From a virus: 30,782 nucleotides of DNA. The stretch lies in IMG/VR virus record IMGVR_UViG_3300044731_001931, positions 1 to 30,782 of that record; one strand, 5' to 3'. Made by a program: the position numbers and the translations under genes. A model generated the notes under the pieces. That model made no database searches. It saw nothing but the letters and a program-made list of their open reading frames with translations, and had not been told where the DNA came from. This document shows, piece by piece, positions 3,146-22,083 of the stretch; position 1 is the first letter of the stretch; every line of letters starts with the position of its first letter.

Positions 3146-3976
3146 TTACCCCATAACCCGTTTGGCCAAAATAGCAATTAACAAGCCGCCCATTAGATAG
3201 CCAATGACAATTTCAAGGATAACGGCAATTTTAGCGACATCAGTTGCCGGCAAAATGTCGCCGTAACCGACCGTGGCAAACGTTACTACCGAAAAATAAA
3301 GGCAATCCAGAAAGGATTTATCAAAAAGCGCCCTATACAGCACAGCAAAGCCCACAACAAACACCAATACCCACGCCAAATAGCGAGTAAATGAGCGGCC
3401 ATAATCACACGTTATCCAAATTAACCAAGAGAATATAGGGTAATGCTGTTTAACTTGCTGGATGCGCTGCTGGGATAACGCTAAATCATAAAGTAACGTC
3501 GCCAGGGTAAAATTAACCCCGCGCAAATCAACGCCTAAAAAACAGGTGTGATGGTCAAATTTAGCATTATCCATTAGCGTATTGTCTAACTTAGCCCAAT
3601 CAAAGCGGGCTCCTCGTACATCGCATTCTGACAAATAGCTTTCAGATAAATTAGCCCTTCTTAAATCAGCGCCGGAAAGGTCGGCGGAAAAAAAATCAAC
3701 ATCGGACAAATCAAGTCCAGATAAATTCTCAGCATTTAACGGAATACCTCGCAAGTCATATTTATCAAAAATACGCCCCACCTGCGCGTCAAGGGTCGTT
3801 CTGGAATAACCGCCAACAGATAACGCCTGCAATAACCCTTTCCCGGCCGAGCTGCTCCACCGCCGTTTAATATCATCCCTAGATAAATGGGCATAATGCT
3901 TCCATTCCAGCGTATCTGGGGAGGTAATATTGATTGATGGCGGGATAAAAAGAGTCATAAAACCAGTATAAATCAT
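3146..3976 (-). CDS. Pentapeptide-repeat potassium channel protein
   Basis: I start it at ATG 3976, with AGAGGG just upstream. A second candidate is ATG 3958. The frame stays open to 4123, but that extension is low-complexity and overlaps promoter-like DNA. The 276-aa product has an N-terminal soluble part, pentapeptide repeats at about residues 82-155 (LSGADLRRANLSESYL and similar A(D/N)LXX units), a first membrane helix at about 199-217, a pore loop with the selectivity filter TVGYGD (235-240), and a second membrane helix at about 249-271. This is a two-TM (KcsA-like, Ion_trans_2) K+ channel in the inner membrane. The repeats probably form a right-handed beta helix in the cytoplasm that could gate or scaffold it. 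It is an unusual gene to find beside phage modules. Its role there is unknown. Confidence 0.85.
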   Translation of the reverse strand: MIYTGFMTLFIPPSINITSPDTLEWKHYAHLSRDDIKRRWSSSAGKGLLQALSVGGYSRTTLDAQVGRIFDKYDLRGIPLNAENLSGLDLSDVDFFSADLSGADLRRANLSESYLSECDVRGARFDWAKLDNTLMDNAKFDHHTCFLGVDLRGVNFTLATLLYDLALSQQRIQQVKQHYPIFSWLIWITCDYGRSFTRYLAWVLVFVVGFAVLYRALFDKSFLDCLYFSVVTFATVGYGDILPATDVAKIAVILEIVIGYLMGGLLIAILAKRVMG

Positions 3977-4134
3977 TTGCCCTCTTGGTTTAAGAGTGGG
4001 GCAAGGAATTATTTTATTGGAAATATACGAATTCGTTTGTTTTATTTTATACGTTAGCGTATTATTCACCACAACGGAGCAGGAAGCCCCCAAGAACACC
4101 CCCCAGCCGCAGACCCGCAGCACACGCTCTTTAC

Positions 4135-14376: not shown

Positions 14377-15087
14377 TTAACAATTGTAGGCCACTAAAAA
14401 CTCAACAGCACCCGGTGCCGAGGCAAAGCTTAGTGTGATGTTATAAAGATAAGGTAATGCCACAGTACCTGAGCCCGATCGCGTAATGGAGATGTCTGGA
14501 TACACGACTTCCCTTGTCTGCGTGGTTGCGGTTGTATCGGTTATTTGATAGACGGTCACAACAATGCCTGGCCTAGGCAGGTTTAACGGTGAGGATTTTG
14601 TGTACGTTAACGCCGATGTTGTGCCTGTAAACGTATAACTACCAAAAAAGGAGCTTTTAGAATCAACATAAGCCTTACTTGTAGCCTCCGACTGAAATCG
14701 TGGGCTTAGGTTTAAATTTATTAATCTGCCACCGAAAACATTGGTGCGTCGTATTGCTCCAGTTGCTGCTGCAATCGTACTACCATTTATGCCTTTATAT
14801 TCTGTCTCGCCGGGAAAATCGTATGATGACAGTACGTCACGCCAGTCTGCTGTGCTTGCTTCAGTGCCTGGGTTAAGGTTAAATTTTAACGATTGCTTTT
14901 GCACCACACTTTGTACTACTGAGCCATCATAATCTGTCGCTGAGTCATTGGTTGCATTGACGTCAATATATAGCGCTCCGCGTGCTGCGTTCATTTCTGT
15001 GGTGGCGTTGCCAACTGGAGTCAGTTGTATAAATGGCGCCTTTAACTTAGCGACACCTTGTAAAACGATGTCTGTAAAAAATTTCAT
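14377..15087 (-). CDS. Tail fibre/appendage protein
   Basis: 236 aa. It contains the fibre motif SEATSKAYVDSK at about residues 133-144, a short N-terminal part (KFFTDIVLQGVAKLKAPFIQ) typical of fibre adaptor proteins, and a beta-rich C-terminus ending AVEFLVAYNC. ATG 15087 overlaps the previous stop as ATGA. The C-terminal half resembles the head of short fibres seen in other siphoviruses, but receptor specificity cannot be read. It is encoded between an adaptor-like gene and the S74 fibre, consistent with a multi-protein fibre. Confidence 0.65.
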   Translation of the reverse strand: MKFFTDIVLQGVAKLKAPFIQLTPVGNATTEMNAARGALYIDVNATNDSATDYDGSVVQSVVQKQSLKFNLNPGTEASTADWRDVLSSYDFPGETEYKGINGSTIAAATGAIRRTNVFGGRLINLNLSPRFQSEATSKAYVDSKSSFFGSYTFTGTTSALTYTKSSPLNLPRPGIVVTVYQITDTTATTQTREVVYPDISITRSGSGTVALPYLYNITLSFASAPGAVEFLVAYNC

Positions 15088-15443
15088 GATAAATGTACCT
15101 CGCAGTTGATAGCTTGTGTAAAGGTAATGCTTAATTCAGATTTACTTTTATAAAGCACGTCCCCAATAATTGGTTCTTTGTCGCCAGAGTTTAAAGTCAT
15201 TAAAATTAACACCTGTGGATAGCCATTTAAGCCATGCGTTAGCACATGGGTAAGTGTGTCATCCGTTAACTCAAAGACTTCGGTGTGCTGTGTGCTTTTA
15301 CACAGTACGCACGTGTTAACCAAGTTAGCATCCTTGGCAGAGGGCGGTTGTGTCGCCTCAGGCGCCATTGCTGGGTTGTTACTTTGCCAGTATACGTGGC
15401 GGTGTGCTTGCGTGTCATAGGCACGCAGAGAGTAGATTTGCAT
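15084..15443 (-). CDS. Tail-associated protein, possible fibre adaptor
   Basis: 119 aa beginning MQIYSLRAYDTQAHRHVYWQ. Pairs of cysteine/histidine (NTCVLCKSTQHTEVFEL) sit in the middle, and the C-terminal half is strand-rich (GYPQVLILMTLNSGDKEPII). No known family. Tight coupling (ATGA) with the fibre gene downstream and position after the tail-tip genes suggest an attachment or assembly role. No clear Shine-Dalgarno sequence lies before ATG 15443. Confidence 0.5.
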   Translation of the reverse strand: MQIYSLRAYDTQAHRHVYWQSNNPAMAPEATQPPSAKDANLVNTCVLCKSTQHTEVFELTDDTLTHVLTHGLNGYPQVLILMTLNSGDKEPIIGDVLYKSKSELSITFTQAINCEVHLS

Positions 15444-15475
15444 AAGCTATCGTCGGTTAATTACGGCGTGATGGG

Positions 15476-15679
15476 TTAACTACGTCGCGATTTGTTAATT
15501 TCTTTTATAATTTGTTTGATGCGTAAGTAATAAGGCTTAACTTGCTCGTAGTCTTTTTTTAGTCGAATATAGGGTAAGCGGTCTATGTTTATGGTCAGTA
15601 TGCCGTTGTGTATGGCGTAGTGATAACCTTGTTCAATGAGCCAGGCGGCAAAATAAAAATCTCTGATAATCATAATCAT
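15476..15679 (-). CDS. Small tail-operon protein (67 aa)
   Basis: ATG 15679 overlaps the stop of the tail-tip C-terminal gene as ATGA; ATG 15673 is an alternative. The sequence MIMIIRDFYFAAWLIEQGYH is followed by a short strand (ILTINIDRLPYIRL) and a basic helical end (KQIIKEINKSRRS). Similar small DUF-like proteins occur at this position in other tail operons, but I cannot name the family. Confidence 0.5.
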   Translation of the reverse strand: MIMIIRDFYFAAWLIEQGYHYAIHNGILTINIDRLPYIRLKKDYEQVKPYYLRIKQIIKEINKSRRS

Positions 15680-17160
15680 CCATAAATTAAATACGACACA
15701 CTGCCCATTCCGGTAATGGCGTCTGCCTCGTTTAAGCGGGCATACGCTATGCCCTCGACAAGGTGTAAGCTGATGTCGTTGTACTCTTCTGTTTCGCCAC
15801 TGTCTTTTAAGATGCTCATGCGCCCAAGTAGTAGATCTGAGCTGGGTATGCTTGGCAAGCGTAGCTGATTATTTAGTACAGGTGCTAAGGCGGTGTTAAT
15901 TAACTGTAAACTGCTTAACGGTAAAAATTGTTGGTCAGTGTTAAGGGTAATGTCGCTGTTGGTGTTAAGTATGGTGCTGCTTGAGGCTGGGGTTAAGCTG
16001 CTTTGTGCATCAAAAATCAAGGTACTTAAGCGTGCGTTTTCGCCCCAGATGATGATGTCAATATCGGTGCTTTGGCTCAGGCTGAGTAAGGTGTTGGCAG
16101 TTTGCCAATGGTAGCCTAAGGCACTGCTGGTTAAGGTGCTTAGGGTGCTGTCTTGGGTGCGCAGCGCTATGGTTATGCTGCCCAGTGCTGCGCTAGTGCC
16201 AAGGTAACCTAAGACCTGGTAAATGCCCGCGCTCAGTTGTAAATTGCTGATTAAAGTTGGGTAGGTGTCGGCCTCAGCATTAAGGGCGTATTGCTGTACG
16301 CTGGCAGCGCTTAGGGCGGAGGTTACGGCAAGGTTTAACCATTCTCGTGCGCGATGATCCCAAAAATAATTTTGTACGCCGTTGCCGCTGTTAACCTGAG
16401 CATAATCACCAGGCTTAGCGGTGGGCAGTGTCGCGGTTAACGTGCTAAGGCTGGTAAAGGTGCCACGGTAAGGCAGGTCGGCTAACAGCGCGTTTATGCC
16501 ACCGTTATCGGTGACTAGAAAGGAGTAAGCGTAGAGATCGGCTAAGTCTTGTAAGCCTTTGCCAACTAAGTTAAAACACTGAAATTTAAAATATAAGGTG
16601 GTGCCTACTTTGTGTGCAGGGAAGCTTTTTTTAAAGATCGCGTTGTCAAGTAAGCAAAAATCGGCATTTAAGTCGGCACCAGTGGGGCGCTTGTATAAGC
16701 CTCGCGTTAAGGTGCTTAGGGTGTAGGAGCTGGGCGCGGTTAAGGTGGCAGTTTTGTACACTAAAAATTCGCCCCCCACGTAGCACAGTGAGTCTTTATT
16801 AGTAAAGGTTTGCTGGCTTACCGATTCTAAGTCGTCTGTTGGGTTGTTGAGTTTAAGCGTTAAGCTGTCTTGCACGGCAAAGGGTGGTGATACGCTGCTT
16901 AAGGCACTGGTTAACACGCCTTGTTTGGCGTTGCCGTCTAGTTTGCCGATTTTTTTATAGCTGGTGTTGTCATTGCTGGCGTAAACATAACAGCCACCAT
17001 AGTTGGGATCGGAGTTGGAGACGGCTATCCATATCTCTCCACCCGCTACAGTTAACTCTGCGGGGGCAACAAAAATAAGGGGTTTATTGATCAGTGCAGG
17101 GACAGTGGTGTGGTTGGGTGCGTAACCTTGTGTCGCTTGCGTGTTGGTTTTATTAGCCAT
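15676..17160 (-). CDS. Tail-tip protein, C-terminal half of a split hub/tip protein
   Basis: 494 aa, starting inside the end of the previous tip gene (8-nt overlap). The first 230 residues follow the late part of tip-attachment proteins: short Ig-like strands, CYVGGEFLVYKTATL, LTRGLYKRPTGADLNADFCL, and FKKSFPAHKVGTTLYFKFQC. The remainder is beta-rich with repeated LSTLT-type strands and an RMSILKDSGETEEYND end. In gene-transfer-agent-like tails and many siphoviruses these regions are fused into one very large protein (gp15/J/megatron). Here two adjacent genes seem to encode them. Functions as part of the baseplate or tip at the distal tail. Confidence 0.65.
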   Translation of the reverse strand: MANKTNTQATQGYAPNHTTVPALINKPLIFVAPAELTVAGGEIWIAVSNSDPNYGGCYVYASNDNTSYKKIGKLDGNAKQGVLTSALSSVSPPFAVQDSLTLKLNNPTDDLESVSQQTFTNKDSLCYVGGEFLVYKTATLTAPSSYTLSTLTRGLYKRPTGADLNADFCLLDNAIFKKSFPAHKVGTTLYFKFQCFNLVGKGLQDLADLYAYSFLVTDNGGINALLADLPYRGTFTSLSTLTATLPTAKPGDYAQVNSGNGVQNYFWDHRAREWLNLAVTSALSAASVQQYALNAEADTYPTLISNLQLSAGIYQVLGYLGTSAALGSITIALRTQDSTLSTLTSSALGYHWQTANTLLSLSQSTDIDIIIWGENARLSTLIFDAQSSLTPASSSTILNTNSDITLNTDQQFLPLSSLQLINTALAPVLNNQLRLPSIPSSDLLLGRMSILKDSGETEEYNDISLHLVEGIAYARLNEADAITGMGSVSYLIYG

Positions 17161-18409
17161 GGTATACGCCTTCTGGTGCCTCTTCTACGGTGATGATAAG
17201 GTTGCCGTCTTGTTCGTCTTCAAGCGCGATAATACGGCAGCGGGTGGTGTGTAGCCCTAAGCTTGCATCGGTGACGGTCACAAAGTCTAGCGGCTCAAGG
17301 AAGTCGGCGTCGCAACAGGTGTGAAGCTGGTATTCATTGCGGATATACAGTCCGCGTGACAGTAAATTGTAAGCAATTTTTTGCGCTACGTCGGGCAAGC
17401 AGACGCTTTCAAGGCTAAGTGTTTGCGCTTGGCGTAAGCCGTACTGTTCAATTTCTGCCTGGTCTTTGGCTTCCACAGTGTGTTTATTGTAGGCATTGGC
17501 ACGGTTTAAGCATTCTATGCTTAGCTTGTTGTAGCAATCGATGTGTTTTTTGCGCGTGGGTTTTAAGGGCGTGCTTAAGTTGTCATCGTTAAAGTGGTAA
17601 CGTATCTCGGTGTCGGCCTGATAGTTTGTGCCGTTGCCGCTTAGGTTTTCGTCATCGTAGGGGATGAATTTAAGCGTGCCTTCACTCCAGACAATGCCGC
17701 AATTAGCCACGGTTGCCCATTCGCTTAGGTACTCGTGTGCGGGTTTTTGGCTGCTGAGCAGCGGACTGATCAGCAGTCCTGCGGCCTGTGTGTAAGTGTG
17801 TAGGAGGCTTAAGTCTAAAGGTAAGGTGGCGGTGCTAGCTGAAATTGCGCCATAATGTGGATTGGTTAAAAAATCATTAATAATATCCCTTATATACGCA
17901 TCGGTGTAGTTAACATCTGTGGAGATGCTGCTTAATGCATGGCCGCGTACTTCGATGGAGTGATTACCTAAACTCGCGCCTTGCCCTAAGTCGTAGTCTT
18001 TGGCACTGAGGTAAGCGGTGCCAGCGTAGGTTAAGGCTTGGTCTTGATGTTTAGGGAGTAAGTCGCCCCAGAGTGCTTGGGTGGTGGTGCCGGTGGTGGT
18101 ATGGCTAAACCCTGCTTTGGTGGTGGTGTCGTAAATATCTTTATCTTTCCAGACTTTGCCATACCCGCCTAAGGTGCCTTCACCAATAAATAATATGATC
18201 GTGGCGGTGTAGGTGTAGCTACCACTGCTGCCGCCTTTGCCGCTTTCTTTGTAGGTGGCAGTAAAGTCGGTGCTATAGCCAAGCGTTGGGCTGACGCGGT
18301 TGCTGCCATAGCACAGTTGTATGGGCGCACCATAGCCCATAGTTTGGATCTGTATGGCAGATAATTTTTGTGCTTGAGCGCTGCTGTTGCTGCCCATTAA
18401 AAATCCCAT
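17153..18409 (-). CDS. Tail-tip/hub protein, N-terminal half (GTA gp15 / lambda J-like)
   Basis: 418 aa. ATG 18409 has AAGGA 6 nt upstream. The N-terminus (SAIQIQTMGYGAPIQLCYGS) and LFIGEGTLGGYGKVWKDKDI, then the hub-type region (LSEWATVANCGIVWSEGTLK) and LPDVAQKIAYNLLSRGLYIR, match the Phage-tail_3/tip-attachment family. The C-terminal part (FVTVTDASLGL...RCRIIALEDEQDGNLIITVE) is the usual hub beta domain. It should form the tail tip under the DUF2163 hub. Its short leader contains a CRISPR-repeat-like sequence (18430-18461), the main oddity of this locus. Confidence 0.75.
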   Translation of the reverse strand: MGFLMGSNSSAQAQKLSAIQIQTMGYGAPIQLCYGSNRVSPTLGYSTDFTATYKESGKGGSSGSYTYTATIILFIGEGTLGGYGKVWKDKDIYDTTTKAGFSHTTTGTTTQALWGDLLPKHQDQALTYAGTAYLSAKDYDLGQGASLGNHSIEVRGHALSSISTDVNYTDAYIRDIINDFLTNPHYGAISASTATLPLDLSLLHTYTQAAGLLISPLLSSQKPAHEYLSEWATVANCGIVWSEGTLKFIPYDDENLSGNGTNYQADTEIRYHFNDDNLSTPLKPTRKKHIDCYNKLSIECLNRANAYNKHTVEAKDQAEIEQYGLRQAQTLSLESVCLPDVAQKIAYNLLSRGLYIRNEYQLHTCCDADFLEPLDFVTVTDASLGLHTTRCRIIALEDEQDGNLIITVEEAPEGVYHG

Positions 18410-18429
18410 GCGGTGTCCTTATTTTGTTT

Positions 18430-18461
18430 GTTTCAATCCACGCGCCTTCGGGTGGCTCGAC
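18430..18461 (-). repeat. Solitary type I-C-like CRISPR repeat (candidate RNA anti-CRISPR)
   Basis: Exactly 32 nt, the usual type I-C repeat length. On the + strand it starts GTTTCAATCCACGC and ends CTCGAC. Read on the - strand (late-transcript sense) it begins GTCG and ends in the invariant GTGGATTGAAAC. C3-G21, G4-C20, G6-C18, C7-G17 and C8-G16 pair with one A-G mismatch, leaving the last 11 nt (TGGATTGAAAC) unpaired, the same size as the 5' handle that Cas5c leaves on I-C crRNAs. No second copy lies within a spacer's distance and no cas genes are present. It sits between a small gene's stop (18474) and the tip gene's ribosome site (18416-18420). Confidence 0.75.
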
Positions 18462-18473
18462 AAAACCAATAGT

Positions 18474-18629
18474 TTATTTGTCTAGGTGCTCTGGTGCGGC
18501 GCTGGCCTGTTCAATAGGGCTTAATTTCTGTATGGCTGCCACCAATTCATGCACTTCTGCAAAGGGTTTAGTAACCAGGTAATTTAATAAGCTGGTTAAT
18601 AGGTTTACGTTGATTGTGTAGTCTTGCAT
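18474..18629 (-). CDS. Small tail-operon protein (51 aa)
   Basis: ATG 18629 with a strong AGGAGA ribosome site, stop TAA 18476-18474. Product MQDYTINVNLLTSLLNYLVT continues KPFAEVHELVAAIQKLSPIE and ends QASAAPEHLDK. Mostly helical, acidic, without membrane segment. Similar short helical proteins occur beside fibre genes, but the family is not known to me. It lies between the REP-like hairpin and the CRISPR-like repeat. Its proximity to the repeat makes it a candidate for a protein anti-CRISPR or for a neutral passenger; nothing in the sequence decides this. Confidence 0.6.
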   Translation of the reverse strand: MQDYTINVNLLTSLLNYLVTKPFAEVHELVAAIQKLSPIEQASAAPEHLDK

Positions 18630-18655
18630 AAGTTATCTCCTAATAAAATAATAAC

Positions 18656-18683
18656 GTAGAGACGCGCTGTAGCGCGTCTCTAC
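18656..18683. repeat. REP-like palindrome, copy 1
   Basis: GTAGAGACGCGC (18656-18667), loop TGTA, GCGCGTCTCTAC (18672-18683): a perfect 12-bp stem 8 nt past the stop of the 103-aa gene. The same palindrome, preceded by AATAAAATAAT, occurs at 28436-28465. No T tract follows. Confidence 0.85.
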
Positions 18684-18690
18684 CTAGATA

Positions 18691-19002
18691 TTAAACCGCA
18701 ACACCACCTAAATCAGTCATCAAAGAAGTGTATAAAGATACATAACCTCTTTCTGTAGCTACATAAGGTGCAGAATGATTAAATTCTTTGATTAAGTTTT
18801 TAGCCATAGTTTCAGGTTGAGCGGGAACGTAACCTTCCTCACCTTCAAGACCTACAGCTGGAATTGCAGGTACAGCAACTTCCATGTATACGCCGACAAG
18901 AGAGTTCCAACCTTCTCGTGAAGAACCCCATAAACGGTCAATGCGAACATAAGCATTAGGAATAGTTAAGCCGTTAAAATCATAGTTTGTTTGAATTGCC
19001 AT
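18691..19002 (-). CDS. Phage protein in fibre cluster (103 aa)
   Basis: ATG 19002 with AGGAAA upstream. Starts MAIQTNYDFNGLTIPNAYVR and has a proline-rich loop in the middle (PAIPAVGLEGEEGYVPAQPE). This pattern is seen in small proteins next to tail fibres in several phages. Function unknown; possibly a fibre cap or assembly factor. It is followed closely by the REP-like hairpin, so its mRNA may be protected or downstream expression reduced. Confidence 0.6.
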   Translation of the reverse strand: MAIQTNYDFNGLTIPNAYVRIDRLWGSSREGWNSLVGVYMEVAVPAIPAVGLEGEEGYVPAQPETMAKNLIKEFNHSAPYVATERGYVSLYTSLMTDLGGVAV

Positions 19003-19022
19003 GTTTAGTTTCCTATTTTAAA

Positions 19023-20303
19023 TTAAGCCGAAGTTATTGTTTGCCAACCTGCACCTGTGTTGACACATAGTTTGCCCAGTGTAGTATCAAAAACAACATT
19101 CCCAGCAGCATTAGGTGTTATAGCATTTTTCTGTGCTGTGGTCATGTTAGGAAATCTAACACCCTGCGTTGTAGATTGTATGTCAACCTTGCTAGACTGA
19201 TGAGGTTCAAAAGTGCCAATACCGACCTGACCTGAACGGAAGGTTAATAAATGCAGTTCGGAAGTGTTTCCCCACTTTTGTACAAGGTGGTACTGAATAG
19301 CAGAACCTGTATGGTGCTGTTTAAACTGAATTCCCCAATTCACTCCCGCATCGAAAGATACAATATTTTTTGTTTGAAGAGATGTTGTATCAACACTAAA
19401 CACAGTACTACCACTCACCTGCAACTTATTTACGCCATCGTCTGTTGTTGTGCCTATAAGTACATTGCCTGCAAAATAGTTACAGTCATTTACACCTTTT
19501 TGGAAGATACCGTACTTATTAGTAACACTGCTTCCAGCATAATTACCAGCCTCTACAAATATACCGTAGGCGTTTACTAAGTTTGCTCCCGCTGTTAAGT
19601 TACAGGCAGCGTAAAAATTGATTAAATCCGAAGTGACATCGTTTGGGTATGTTGGTTTAAACAAGATACCAAACTGAGTTGCTCCAGACGTAGACACACC
19701 TTCAAACATTGCGCGCATCAAACTGTTAGAACTAGCCCCTTGCGAACCAAATCCAACTCGACCTGCATCATCAACAACAACCAAGCTATTCTGTACTTCC
19801 CCTGTAGTACCGTTAAATCTAACTAAGGCATTATCTGTTGATGCTACTTTGGCTATTGCCGTTGCTTGCACGGCTGCCTGAATTTTTCCATAGGCATAGG
19901 ACACCCATAAGGTTTCGCCGTTATAGTCGGCTGAGCCTATGCTGACACTTTTACCTGTTACCTGTGGATTGCTTAGTTTTACCAGCATGTTTCCCGCTGC
20001 ATCGGTCACAAAACTATCCCACACTAAGGCACTTTGTGGGCTGTTGGTTAAGGTGACTAGGCCGTTGCTGATGGGTAGGTTTTCTGTTACAAACACCAAA
20101 TCATCTTTGTTGTGTTTCCACACCAGTTTCCATACTTGTGCACCAGTGTCCCACTGGTAGCCTGCGCGGCCTCCGCCGACCATGACATCAGCAATCGCAT
20201 CTTTTACAGTGACTTCCATGCCATCAAATTTTTTTATAATCGCATCTCTTTCTGCGATCGTATTGACGATTTTATCGCCGTCATTCGCAATTAATATAGC
20301 CAT
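19023..20303 (-). CDS. Tail fibre protein
   Basis: 426 aa with AAGGA upstream. The N-terminal 100 residues (MAILIANDGDKIVNTIAERD, then GYQWDTGAQVWKLVWK) look like a fibre attachment domain. The central portion has shaft-type strands (NALVRFNGTTGEVQNSLVVV, GRVGFGSQGASSNSL) and the C-terminal section has short repeats (VLIGTTTDDGVNKLQVSG, VGIGTFEPHQSSKVDI). This is a trimeric fibre architecture similar to phage and adhesin shafts. It lacks an S74 domain. A C9/G9 hairpin lies 27 nt before its start, which may make expression variable. Confidence 0.75.
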   Translation of the reverse strand: MAILIANDGDKIVNTIAERDAIIKKFDGMEVTVKDAIADVMVGGGRAGYQWDTGAQVWKLVWKHNKDDLVFVTENLPISNGLVTLTNSPQSALVWDSFVTDAAGNMLVKLSNPQVTGKSVSIGSADYNGETLWVSYAYGKIQAAVQATAIAKVASTDNALVRFNGTTGEVQNSLVVVDDAGRVGFGSQGASSNSLMRAMFEGVSTSGATQFGILFKPTYPNDVTSDLINFYAACNLTAGANLVNAYGIFVEAGNYAGSSVTNKYGIFQKGVNDCNYFAGNVLIGTTTDDGVNKLQVSGSTVFSVDTTSLQTKNIVSFDAGVNWGIQFKQHHTGSAIQYHLVQKWGNTSELHLLTFRSGQVGIGTFEPHQSSKVDIQSTTQGVRFPNMTTAQKNAITPNAAGNVVFDTTLGKLCVNTGAGWQTITSA

Positions 20304-20329
20304 TTGCAGTCCTTAAAAGTAAAAATTAA

Positions 20330-20361
20330 CCCCCCCCCACTTTAAAAAAAGTGGGGGGGGG
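20330..20361. repeat. C9/G9 homopolymer hairpin between fibre genes
   Basis: C9 at 20330-20338 and G9 at 20353-20361 form, with ACTTT/AAAGT, a perfect 14-bp stem around an AAAA loop. It separates the two fibre genes on the - strand transcript. Long G/C tracts slip during replication, so the stem may vary in strength. No T tract follows. Confidence 0.85.
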
Positions 20362-20404
20362 ATTTATCAATAGCCATGCCCACCAAAGCGTGGACACTAG
20401 GCTT

Positions 20405-21541
20405 TTATACGTTTACATACATATATTGCACAGCAACGCTAAACGTGTCCCATTGACCAGACGTATCAACCGAAACAGTAAATGTTTTGCCGCTTACGTC
20501 GGTACCGTCTGCCAGCACAGGGGCATCATAAGCAATGCCGTTGCTGTCTATATAACGCACTGTACCAAAGTTCATAATGCCGTTGATTCCAGCTTTTGGC
20601 GCTTTAGTTAAGACAATTTTATTTGCCGTAACAATTAACTGCTCAAGCTTGGGTAACGATCCACCTTGCGTAGCAGAGTTGTCTGCATACGCTTTTAACG
20701 TGGTGTCTAAACTTGTCAGTGCAGCTTGGGTTAAGGTAGAAATAGGTTTAGCTGCATCAGTAGTATTATCAACGTTGCCTAACCCCACCATTGCTTTAGT
20801 GATACCCGACACTGTACCCGTAAAGGTAGGTGAGGCTAAATTAGCTTTTAAGGCTAACGCACTAATGCCTGCTGTAGATAACGGTTTATTCGCATCACTT
20901 GTATTATCAACGTTAGCTAAGCCTACATCGGCTTTAACTAAGCTAACAATGCCCGTTTTGCCGGCCACACTGTCAACTGCACCAGAAGTAATGTACACAT
21001 AAACAGAACCTGACCAACGGTAGGTTTTGTTGGTATCGATCGCAACGTAAATTTTTCCTGTTTCACCCGTTGCAGGGAAGGCTGCCAAATTGGCGGCTTC
21101 CACAACATCATCAACGTATGAAGGCAAGTACGTCGCTAAGATTTTTGATGTAGCGTCTAAAGGCACGACACCGTTTGCAGCGCCGATTAAACTTGAAGCA
21201 ATACGTGCAGTGGAGTCAATTGCGTTAATGGTGATGTTAGCACTGCCGTTAAAGCTAATGCCATTGATTGTACGCGCAGTTTGCAAAACTGTTGCTGAGG
21301 CTACGTTACCGGCAATTGTTGAAGTAATTGCCGCCGCTCTAGCACTAACTTCAGTCGATAAGTTAGTGGTTAGCGTAGTTTCAGCAGCACGTGCTGTCGT
21401 CGCTTCTGCTGTAATATTAGTTTGTAAAGCTGTAATCGCAGCCGCACGTGTAGTCGCCTCTAACGCATCTGCCGCTTGTAAAGCAGCTAAATCAGCAGTT
21501 AAGCCATAGACCTGGGTTTTTGCACTTTTAATTAACGCCAT
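20405..21541 (-). CDS. Tail fibre shaft protein
   Basis: 378 aa with AGAGGAA upstream. Residues about 10-90 are a long alanine/threonine-rich coiled-coil region (ALQAADALEATTRAAAITAL). Two copies of the shaft motif V-G-L-x-N-V-D-N-T-x-D follow (ADVGLANVDNTSDANKP and KAMVGLGNVDNTTDAAKP), with SPTFTGTVSG between. The C-terminus (KTFTVSVDTSGQWDTFSVAV) is a compact beta domain. Coiled coil plus shaft motifs indicate a homotrimeric fibre. It is encoded right after the NlpC gene, interrupting the normal GTA-like order. Confidence 0.8.
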   Translation of the reverse strand: MALIKSAKTQVYGLTADLAALQAADALEATTRAAAITALQTNITAEATTARAAETTLTTNLSTEVSARAAAITSTIAGNVASATVLQTARTINGISFNGSANITINAIDSTARIASSLIGAANGVVPLDATSKILATYLPSYVDDVVEAANLAAFPATGETGKIYVAIDTNKTYRWSGSVYVYITSGAVDSVAGKTGIVSLVKADVGLANVDNTSDANKPLSTAGISALALKANLASPTFTGTVSGITKAMVGLGNVDNTTDAAKPISTLTQAALTSLDTTLKAYADNSATQGGSLPKLEQLIVTANKIVLTKAPKAGINGIMNFGTVRYIDSNGIAYDAPVLADGTDVSGKTFTVSVDTSGQWDTFSVAVQYMYVNV

Positions 21542-21556
21542 GATATTCCTCTTTTA

Positions 21557-21649
21557 TTATCCGACAGTGTGTCTTAGTCTGCCAACTGAGAGTTTTCTTG
21601 GAGTGAGTGTAGGCTTTTTAAGCTGATATGGGCAGATGAACGGCTTCAT
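21557..21649 (-). CDS. Possible 30-aa coupled microprotein
   Basis: ATG 21649 overlaps the NlpC/P60 stop as ATGA and the frame closes at TAA 21557: MKPFICPYQLKKPTLTPRKL, then SVGRLRHTVG. It is basic and proline-containing. The ATGA coupling used throughout this operon supports it, but size and lack of a family make it uncertain. Confidence 0.3.
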   Translation of the reverse strand: MKPFICPYQLKKPTLTPRKLSVGRLRHTVG

Positions 21650-22083
21650 ATTGTGGCCGCCTCGCCTCTCACGCGGTAAAATTTTACCTTGCGGTCGGCT
21701 AAATAGCCGGTGCTGGCGTTGGCATGCACGACACCAGCTTTGATGTCCGCGTGCAGGATTGTTGGCCAGTTGATAACACTCGCGCCATGGCTGTAGGTGC
21801 GGCCAATTTTCCATACCGCTATGTCGCTGGGTTGTGGGGTATCGGTGGGGTGGGCGTAGCGTTCCACCACGGCCAAGAATTTTTCTTCGTGTTGATGCAG
21901 CGCCCATTGCCGTGAGTAGGCATCTATGCGTGGGCGTTCGATGATGCCGACGGTGCTGTACACGGCGACCAAGAGCTGTGCGCAGTCGCAGGCATAATAG
22001 GGCACGCAGGCTTCGTGATGCCAGCGTGCGCCCAGCCAACGTTGGGCTTCGGCGATGACGGCTTGGCACTGGTCGTCTGTCAT
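21646..22083 (-). CDS. NlpC/P60 tail cell-wall hydrolase (GTA gp14-like)
   Basis: 145 aa, coupled to the DUF2163 gene by ATGA. Catalytic Cys34 lies in YYACDCAQLL (the DC-x-x-L motif), the second residue is His99 in YSHGASVI, and a third polar candidate is His111. These proteins cut peptidoglycan peptides at the tail tip during DNA entry. Order DUF2460-DUF2163-NlpC is the conserved baseplate cassette of gene transfer agents and related siphoviruses. Length is typical. Its product is probably assembled into the baseplate. Confidence 0.87.
   Translation of the reverse strand: MTDDQCQAVIAEAQRWLGARWHHEACVPYYACDCAQLLVAVYSTVGIIERPRIDAYSRQWALHQHEEKFLAVVERYAHPTDTPQPSDIAVWKIGRTYSHGASVINWPTILHADIKAGVVHANASTGYLADRKVKFYRVRGEAATI

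Follow-up and report, generated by a model that had tools for sequence, protein, structure and literature searches.

We identified, in a 30,782-bp virus record (the window, i.e. the whole stretch of DNA that was analysed), one 32-nt element at 18461..18430, GTCGAGCCACCCGAAGGCGCGTGGATTGAAAC in the sense of the tail operon, whose sequence marks it as a genuine type I-C CRISPR repeat. It is a new, degenerate member of a kind already known in phages, the solitary repeat units (SRUs), of which the tested members act as RNA anti-CRISPRs, or Racrs (Camara-Wilpert 2023, PMC10651486). The reading that we prefer, held at about even confidence, is that a type I-C SRU was acquired as a repeat mimic and is now probably weak. 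The repeat, its parts and the neighbouring genes, all on the - strand, are the following:

17153..18409, - strand: tail-tip (gpJ-like) gene, 418 aa (phrog_1101, 5.9e-51; Methylococcales homologues 49–59% identical)
18416..18420, - strand: tail-tip Shine-Dalgarno AAGGA, identified from the sequence, 9 nt after the repeat
18430..18461, - strand: the solitary type I-C-like CRISPR repeat (SRU), which agrees with natural array repeats at 29/32 positions (33.9 bits, E 1.3e-7)
18430..18440, - strand: 11-nt 3′ part of the repeat, UGGAUUGAAAC, the same as the type I-C crRNA 5′ handle
18441..18459, - strand: stem-loop part, repeat positions 3–21, with A5·G19 and A9·A15 mismatches (stem-pair comparison, folding, covariance model)
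18474..18629, - strand: 51-aa ORF with a good ribosome site, AGGAG, and no known family (ORF and profile searches)
18656..18683, - strand: perfect 12-bp hairpin (palindrome GTAGAGACGCGCTACAGCGCGTCTCTAC) and then T-rich GTTATTATTT, terminator-like, upstream of the 51-aa ORF
18691..19002, - strand: 103-aa ORF, part of a cassette, with relatives in two IMG/VR contigs (L127, 81%; L128, 98%)
19023..20303, - strand: probable fibre protein of 426 aa, in the cassette (weak match; partly common to L127 and L128)
20405..21541, - strand: tail fibre or minor tail protein of 378 aa, in the cassette (protein match)
21646..22083, - strand: minor tail protein, NlpC/P60-like by position, whose counterpart in relatives directly precedes the tail tip

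The record encodes an integrase, a Sak4-like annealing protein, a Cas4-domain exonuclease, a helicase and a - strand siphovirus tail operon, with which the repeat is co-directional. The repeat is intergenic: 12 nt separate it from the stop of the 51-aa ORF, 9 nt lie between its end and AAGGA (18420-18416), and the tail-tip gene begins with the ATG at 18409. The preliminary description was thus right in placing a solitary repeat, in tail-operon sense, 9 nt upstream of the tail-tip ribosome site. Only one copy is present in the entire record. No second degenerate copy or spacer remnant was found within 400 nt around it, and in a search for a mini-array (at least 2 repeats with a spacer) the best other non-overlapping match in the flanks had 15 mismatches. 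No cas operon was detected among the window proteins scanned, the sole Cas-like one being a Cas4-domain exonuclease that belongs to the phage's recombination module. The element therefore combines a strong repeat match with solitary occurrence, absence of cas genes and an intergenic position in a mobile element, as SRUs do, the repeat match being judged here by 29/32 identity and the covariance E-value, not by the published SRUFinder bit-score cut-off. Elsewhere in the window, a pentapeptide-repeat protein fused to an ion-channel domain is encoded at 3146-4123, with HTH and toxin-like genes adjoining (1967-2994); this could be a lysogenic-conversion or defence module.

The nearest natural array repeats, GTCGCGCCTCCCGCAGGCGCGTGGATTGAAAC from Pseudoalteromonas, Vibrio and Lampropedia, match the element at 29/32 positions, with C5A, T9A and C14A as the sole differences, and all 17 nt of its 3′ part, including the handle and the 3′ stem arm, are intact. 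Array repeats from Methylococcales, such as GTCGCGCCCCCCGCGGGCGCGTGGATTGAAAC, differ from it at 4 positions (28/32 identity). The suggested search of the 32-mer against arrays gave these natural repeats but no exact host array: the exact 32-mer was absent from 84,980 species genomes and, at up to 3 mismatches, from 201 Methylococcales genomes. In addition, blastn of the 32-mer against phage and plasmid records gave no match above chance, Rfam gave no match, and the spacers of 822 array units showed only chance-length matches to the window. The site has 3 mismatches to natural type I-C repeats, against 12 for the next-nearest place in the window, while the best matches in 200 dinucleotide shuffles had 9–14 mismatches (0/200 within 8). 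The score and E-value given above come from a covariance model of sequence and structure that rests on 14 repeats, 13 of them taken from sequences in this analysis and 1 from Bacillus halodurans (PMC3890593), with a short calibration which makes its E-values rough.

In type I-C systems Cas5d (Cas5c) recognises both the hairpin and the 3′ single strand; its cut at the base of the stem produces an 11-nt 5′ handle and a 21-nt 3′ handle (PMC3890593, PMC5965380). From the sequence and this cleavage rule the predicted cut lies between 18441 and 18440, and the original reading of the element as a 32-nt type I-C repeat with an 11-nt 3′ handle is confirmed. The stem is another matter. In the 14 array repeats with at least 3 copies, positions 5 and 9 are each C or T and pair with 19 and 15, respectively; the window repeat has A at both, so that two stem pairs are lost. 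The 5-pair stem that the preliminary description drew does close at C3-G21, but it counts 5 pairs only when the internal A5·G19 mismatch is tolerated. The predicted minimum-energy fold (-9.4 kcal/mol, against -5.4 for the canonical one) pairs the 3′ handle, and the predicted probability of the canonical hairpin is therefore low, about 0 when the 32-mer is folded alone and 0–0.05 with flanks, versus 0.73–1.0 in three natural repeats. The repeat-like structure recognised by Cas5c, which characterises a Racr, is hence lacking in this prediction, and the protein itself might still induce it.

All seven stem pairs were present in 37 distinct lone-repeat sequences among the matches listed. The window repeat, at 34 bits, had the lowest covariance score of the plausible lone SRUs compared among those matches, a comparison which leaves out two coding coincidences (L103 and L003, 18–23 bits) and the secondary site in L029 (29 bits). 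Since two stem mismatches should weaken recognition by Cas5c, what the phage now carries is probably a racr that is attenuated or decaying, not a strong one. Weaker function is also indicated by work on other RNAs, as Cas5d recognises the hairpin and stem-loop mutants of RacrIF1 fail; in that case, which belongs to subtype I-F and not I-C, changes that disrupted Cas6f binding abolished inhibition (PMC10651486).

SRUs have been reported 2,103 times on viral sequences (PMC10651486), and the window element shares with them in general its match to a known repeat and its isolated, intergenic position in a virus. The closest precedent is RacrIC1, a proven type I-C anti-CRISPR from a Bifidobacterium pseudocatenulatum prophage (Camara-Wilpert et al. 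2023, PMC10651486), which bears out the earlier remark that solitary repeats of phages can be Racr-type mimics. RacrIC1 lies 11 nt downstream of acrIC5, is carried on one mRNA with it and inhibits type I-C (PMC10651486). Both are single type I-C repeats, intergenic in a phage, on the strand of their neighbours and without cas genes. RacrIC1, on the other hand, follows an acr gene and shares one transcript with it, and both its start site and its inhibition have been demonstrated, whereas the window repeat, known here from sequence alone, has no known acr beside it, lies inside a tail operon and has a broken stem. RacrIF1, from a Thiocystis violascens prophage, mimics a repeat and in this way titrates the crRNA endonuclease as well as Cas7, a mechanism like the one proposed below; it differs in being type I-F, with an intact stem-loop bound by Cas6f, and a mutation at the stem base kills its activity.

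The phage is a temperate siphovirus, probably of a methane-oxidising gammaproteobacterium of the order Methylococcales, a host assignment that rests on tail-tip homology. Homologues of 50–60% identity were detected in 3/201 Methylococcales genomes, with a fourth at 36%, and in none of 369 gammaproteobacteria sampled across the class; identity to named phages is about 35%. Type I-C systems, which the host lineage had been supposed to carry, are common in this order, with Csd1 (Cas8c, the type I-C marker) above the cut-off in 45/201 genomes and I-C repeats found by a strict pattern in 30/201. As G035, G052 and G068, the genomes whose tail-tip homologues are the best, show no Csd1, the host link holds at the level of the order only.

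In the Methylococcales relatives, the peptidase-like tail gene directly adjoins the tail-tip gene, while in the window about 3.2 kb lie between them, with the fibre-like genes, the 103-aa gene, the hairpin, the 51-aa ORF and the repeat. Because of this insert, the repeat probably arrived with the cassette. No repeat precedes the tail-tip gene in the examined Methylococcales relatives or in 20 further viral tail-tip relatives from a protein-guided search (one of which, L183, is apparently the same element as L165), and conservation in related phages, which the preliminary description had looked for, is thus not seen at this junction. No viral relatives were found by the tail-tip protein alone, nor any DNA relatives of window 15000-20400 in phage records. 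As for the two contigs with relatives of the 103-aa gene, L128 ends within that gene, and L127, over the ~390 nt past it, shows neither a tail-tip gene nor the repeat. The 51-aa gene had been proposed to form one unit with the repeat; no family or relative of it was found, viral relatives included, and we see no evidence for a conserved Racr unit. The palindrome at 18656-18683 is terminator-like, or a mobile palindromic repeat. It was considered as a host marker and rejected, being absent at up to 2 mismatches from 151 Methylococcales genomes.

We propose that the SRU came with, or beside, the tail-fibre cassette, whose insertion separates the peptidase-like tail gene from that for the tail tip. 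No promoter of its own was found for the repeat, which has the terminator-like hairpin upstream, and the tail mRNA would carry it in sense. The repeat RNA would offer the host's Cas5c, and through Cas5c also Cas7, a false crRNA precursor, and such repeat mimicry is most likely the function that it has kept or for which it was acquired. Were Cas5c to bind the RNA and cut it at 18441/18440, it would stay on the 3′ end of the upstream fragment, on which a useless Cas7 filament could then start, as with RacrIF1 (PMC10651486), while the downstream fragment would retain the ribosome site of the tip gene. Each of these steps is less likely than for a canonical SRU because the stem is defective. Transcription of the repeat, including its supposed production late in infection, binding or cleavage by Cas5c and inhibition of immunity are all inferred, and a working RNA anti-CRISPR is plausible, though made less likely by the stem and by the lack of conservation.

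A serious, somewhat less probable explanation is that the repeat is a functionless relic, either a former SRU or what a collapsed viral mini-array left as its last repeat, drifting without selection and harmlessly between genes. The two broken stem pairs, the lowest score of the plausible SRUs compared among the matches listed and the lack of conservation in relatives all agree with decay, and similar lone repeats occur on chromosomes: solitary repeats can exist outside phages, as Methylobacter chromosomes carry some beside housekeeping genes such as that for the Lon protease (L142 2901-2932 and L155 6415-6446), which are probably remnants of lost arrays. Drift fits less well with the pattern of change, as none of the 17 nt in the 3′ part has changed and the departures from the nearest natural repeat are confined to positions 5, 9 and 14; nor was any remnant of an array left nearby.

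In keeping with the preferred reading, lone I-C repeats also occur on at least ~40 other IMG/VR contigs. An anchor scan together with a pattern scan of IMG/VR gave at least 44 lone sites after deduplication, the window included and a few of them coding coincidences. Their gene context was taken from a crude, greedy ORF caller, and some of the "inside ORF" labels are wrong-strand artefacts. Among the matches listed, 9 sites in sense and 4 in antisense lie within 45 nt before a Shine-Dalgarno and ORF (p = 0.27); within 0–14 nt, a cut set post hoc after the data were seen, there are 8/44 in sense and none in antisense, the nearest of the latter being at 15 nt.

Several of these sites have peculiarities of their own. 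IMGVR_UViG_3300031673_000079 carries three lone I-C repeats about 0.6–2 kb apart (L012 6125-6156; L020 358-389 and 955-986), two of them with near-identical upstream flanks, and L068, L042 and L011 have two or more covariance-model matches each. In L089 (1775-1822), the last 8 nt of a lone I-C repeat (ATTGAAAC, from the crRNA-handle part) recur behind it as two extra copies in tandem. The sequence AAAC directly follows the terminal GAAAC of the window repeat (18426-18433), and likewise in L012, L020, L033 and L123; by a count made by eye, this applies to 5/44 lone repeats among the matches listed, which seems above the expectation from base composition.

The placement before a ribosome site bears on two further readings, both improbable. 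In the first, the stem-altered repeat would bind Cas5c through its intact 3′ part and 3′ arm and resist cleavage, and so serve as a competitive trap on the abundant tail mRNA, its placement before ribosome sites recurring in other phages; this would be a mechanistic variant of Racr. In the second, the repeat is a Cas5c-dependent processing site, at which the tail mRNA would be cut between the cassette and the tip gene, altering tip-gene expression as a sensor or at a cost. The distance of 9 nt to the Shine-Dalgarno would suit such a site, since a cut there would spare the ribosome site on the downstream piece, and a subset of other SRUs is placed in the same way. Against it, the weakened hairpin makes cutting doubtful, the placement is not a rule for SRUs, with a weak orientation bias among the matches listed, and no regulatory benefit is evident. 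Finally, a chance resemblance, or a coding sequence that merely looks repeat-like, is ruled out statistically by the shuffles and the covariance model and has hardly any probability left: exact 15-mer anchors do match coding genes by chance, as in L003 and L103, but the window match covers 29/32 nt in an intergenic gap and scores well above those coincidences.

The repeat matters in either state. If active, it would be an RNA anti-CRISPR within a tail operon, in a phage whose hosts are probably methane-oxidising bacteria, and it would test how much of the hairpin a type I-C repeat mimic requires. If inactive, it would show how repeat mimics decay, and that repeat searches based on sequence only collect broken copies.
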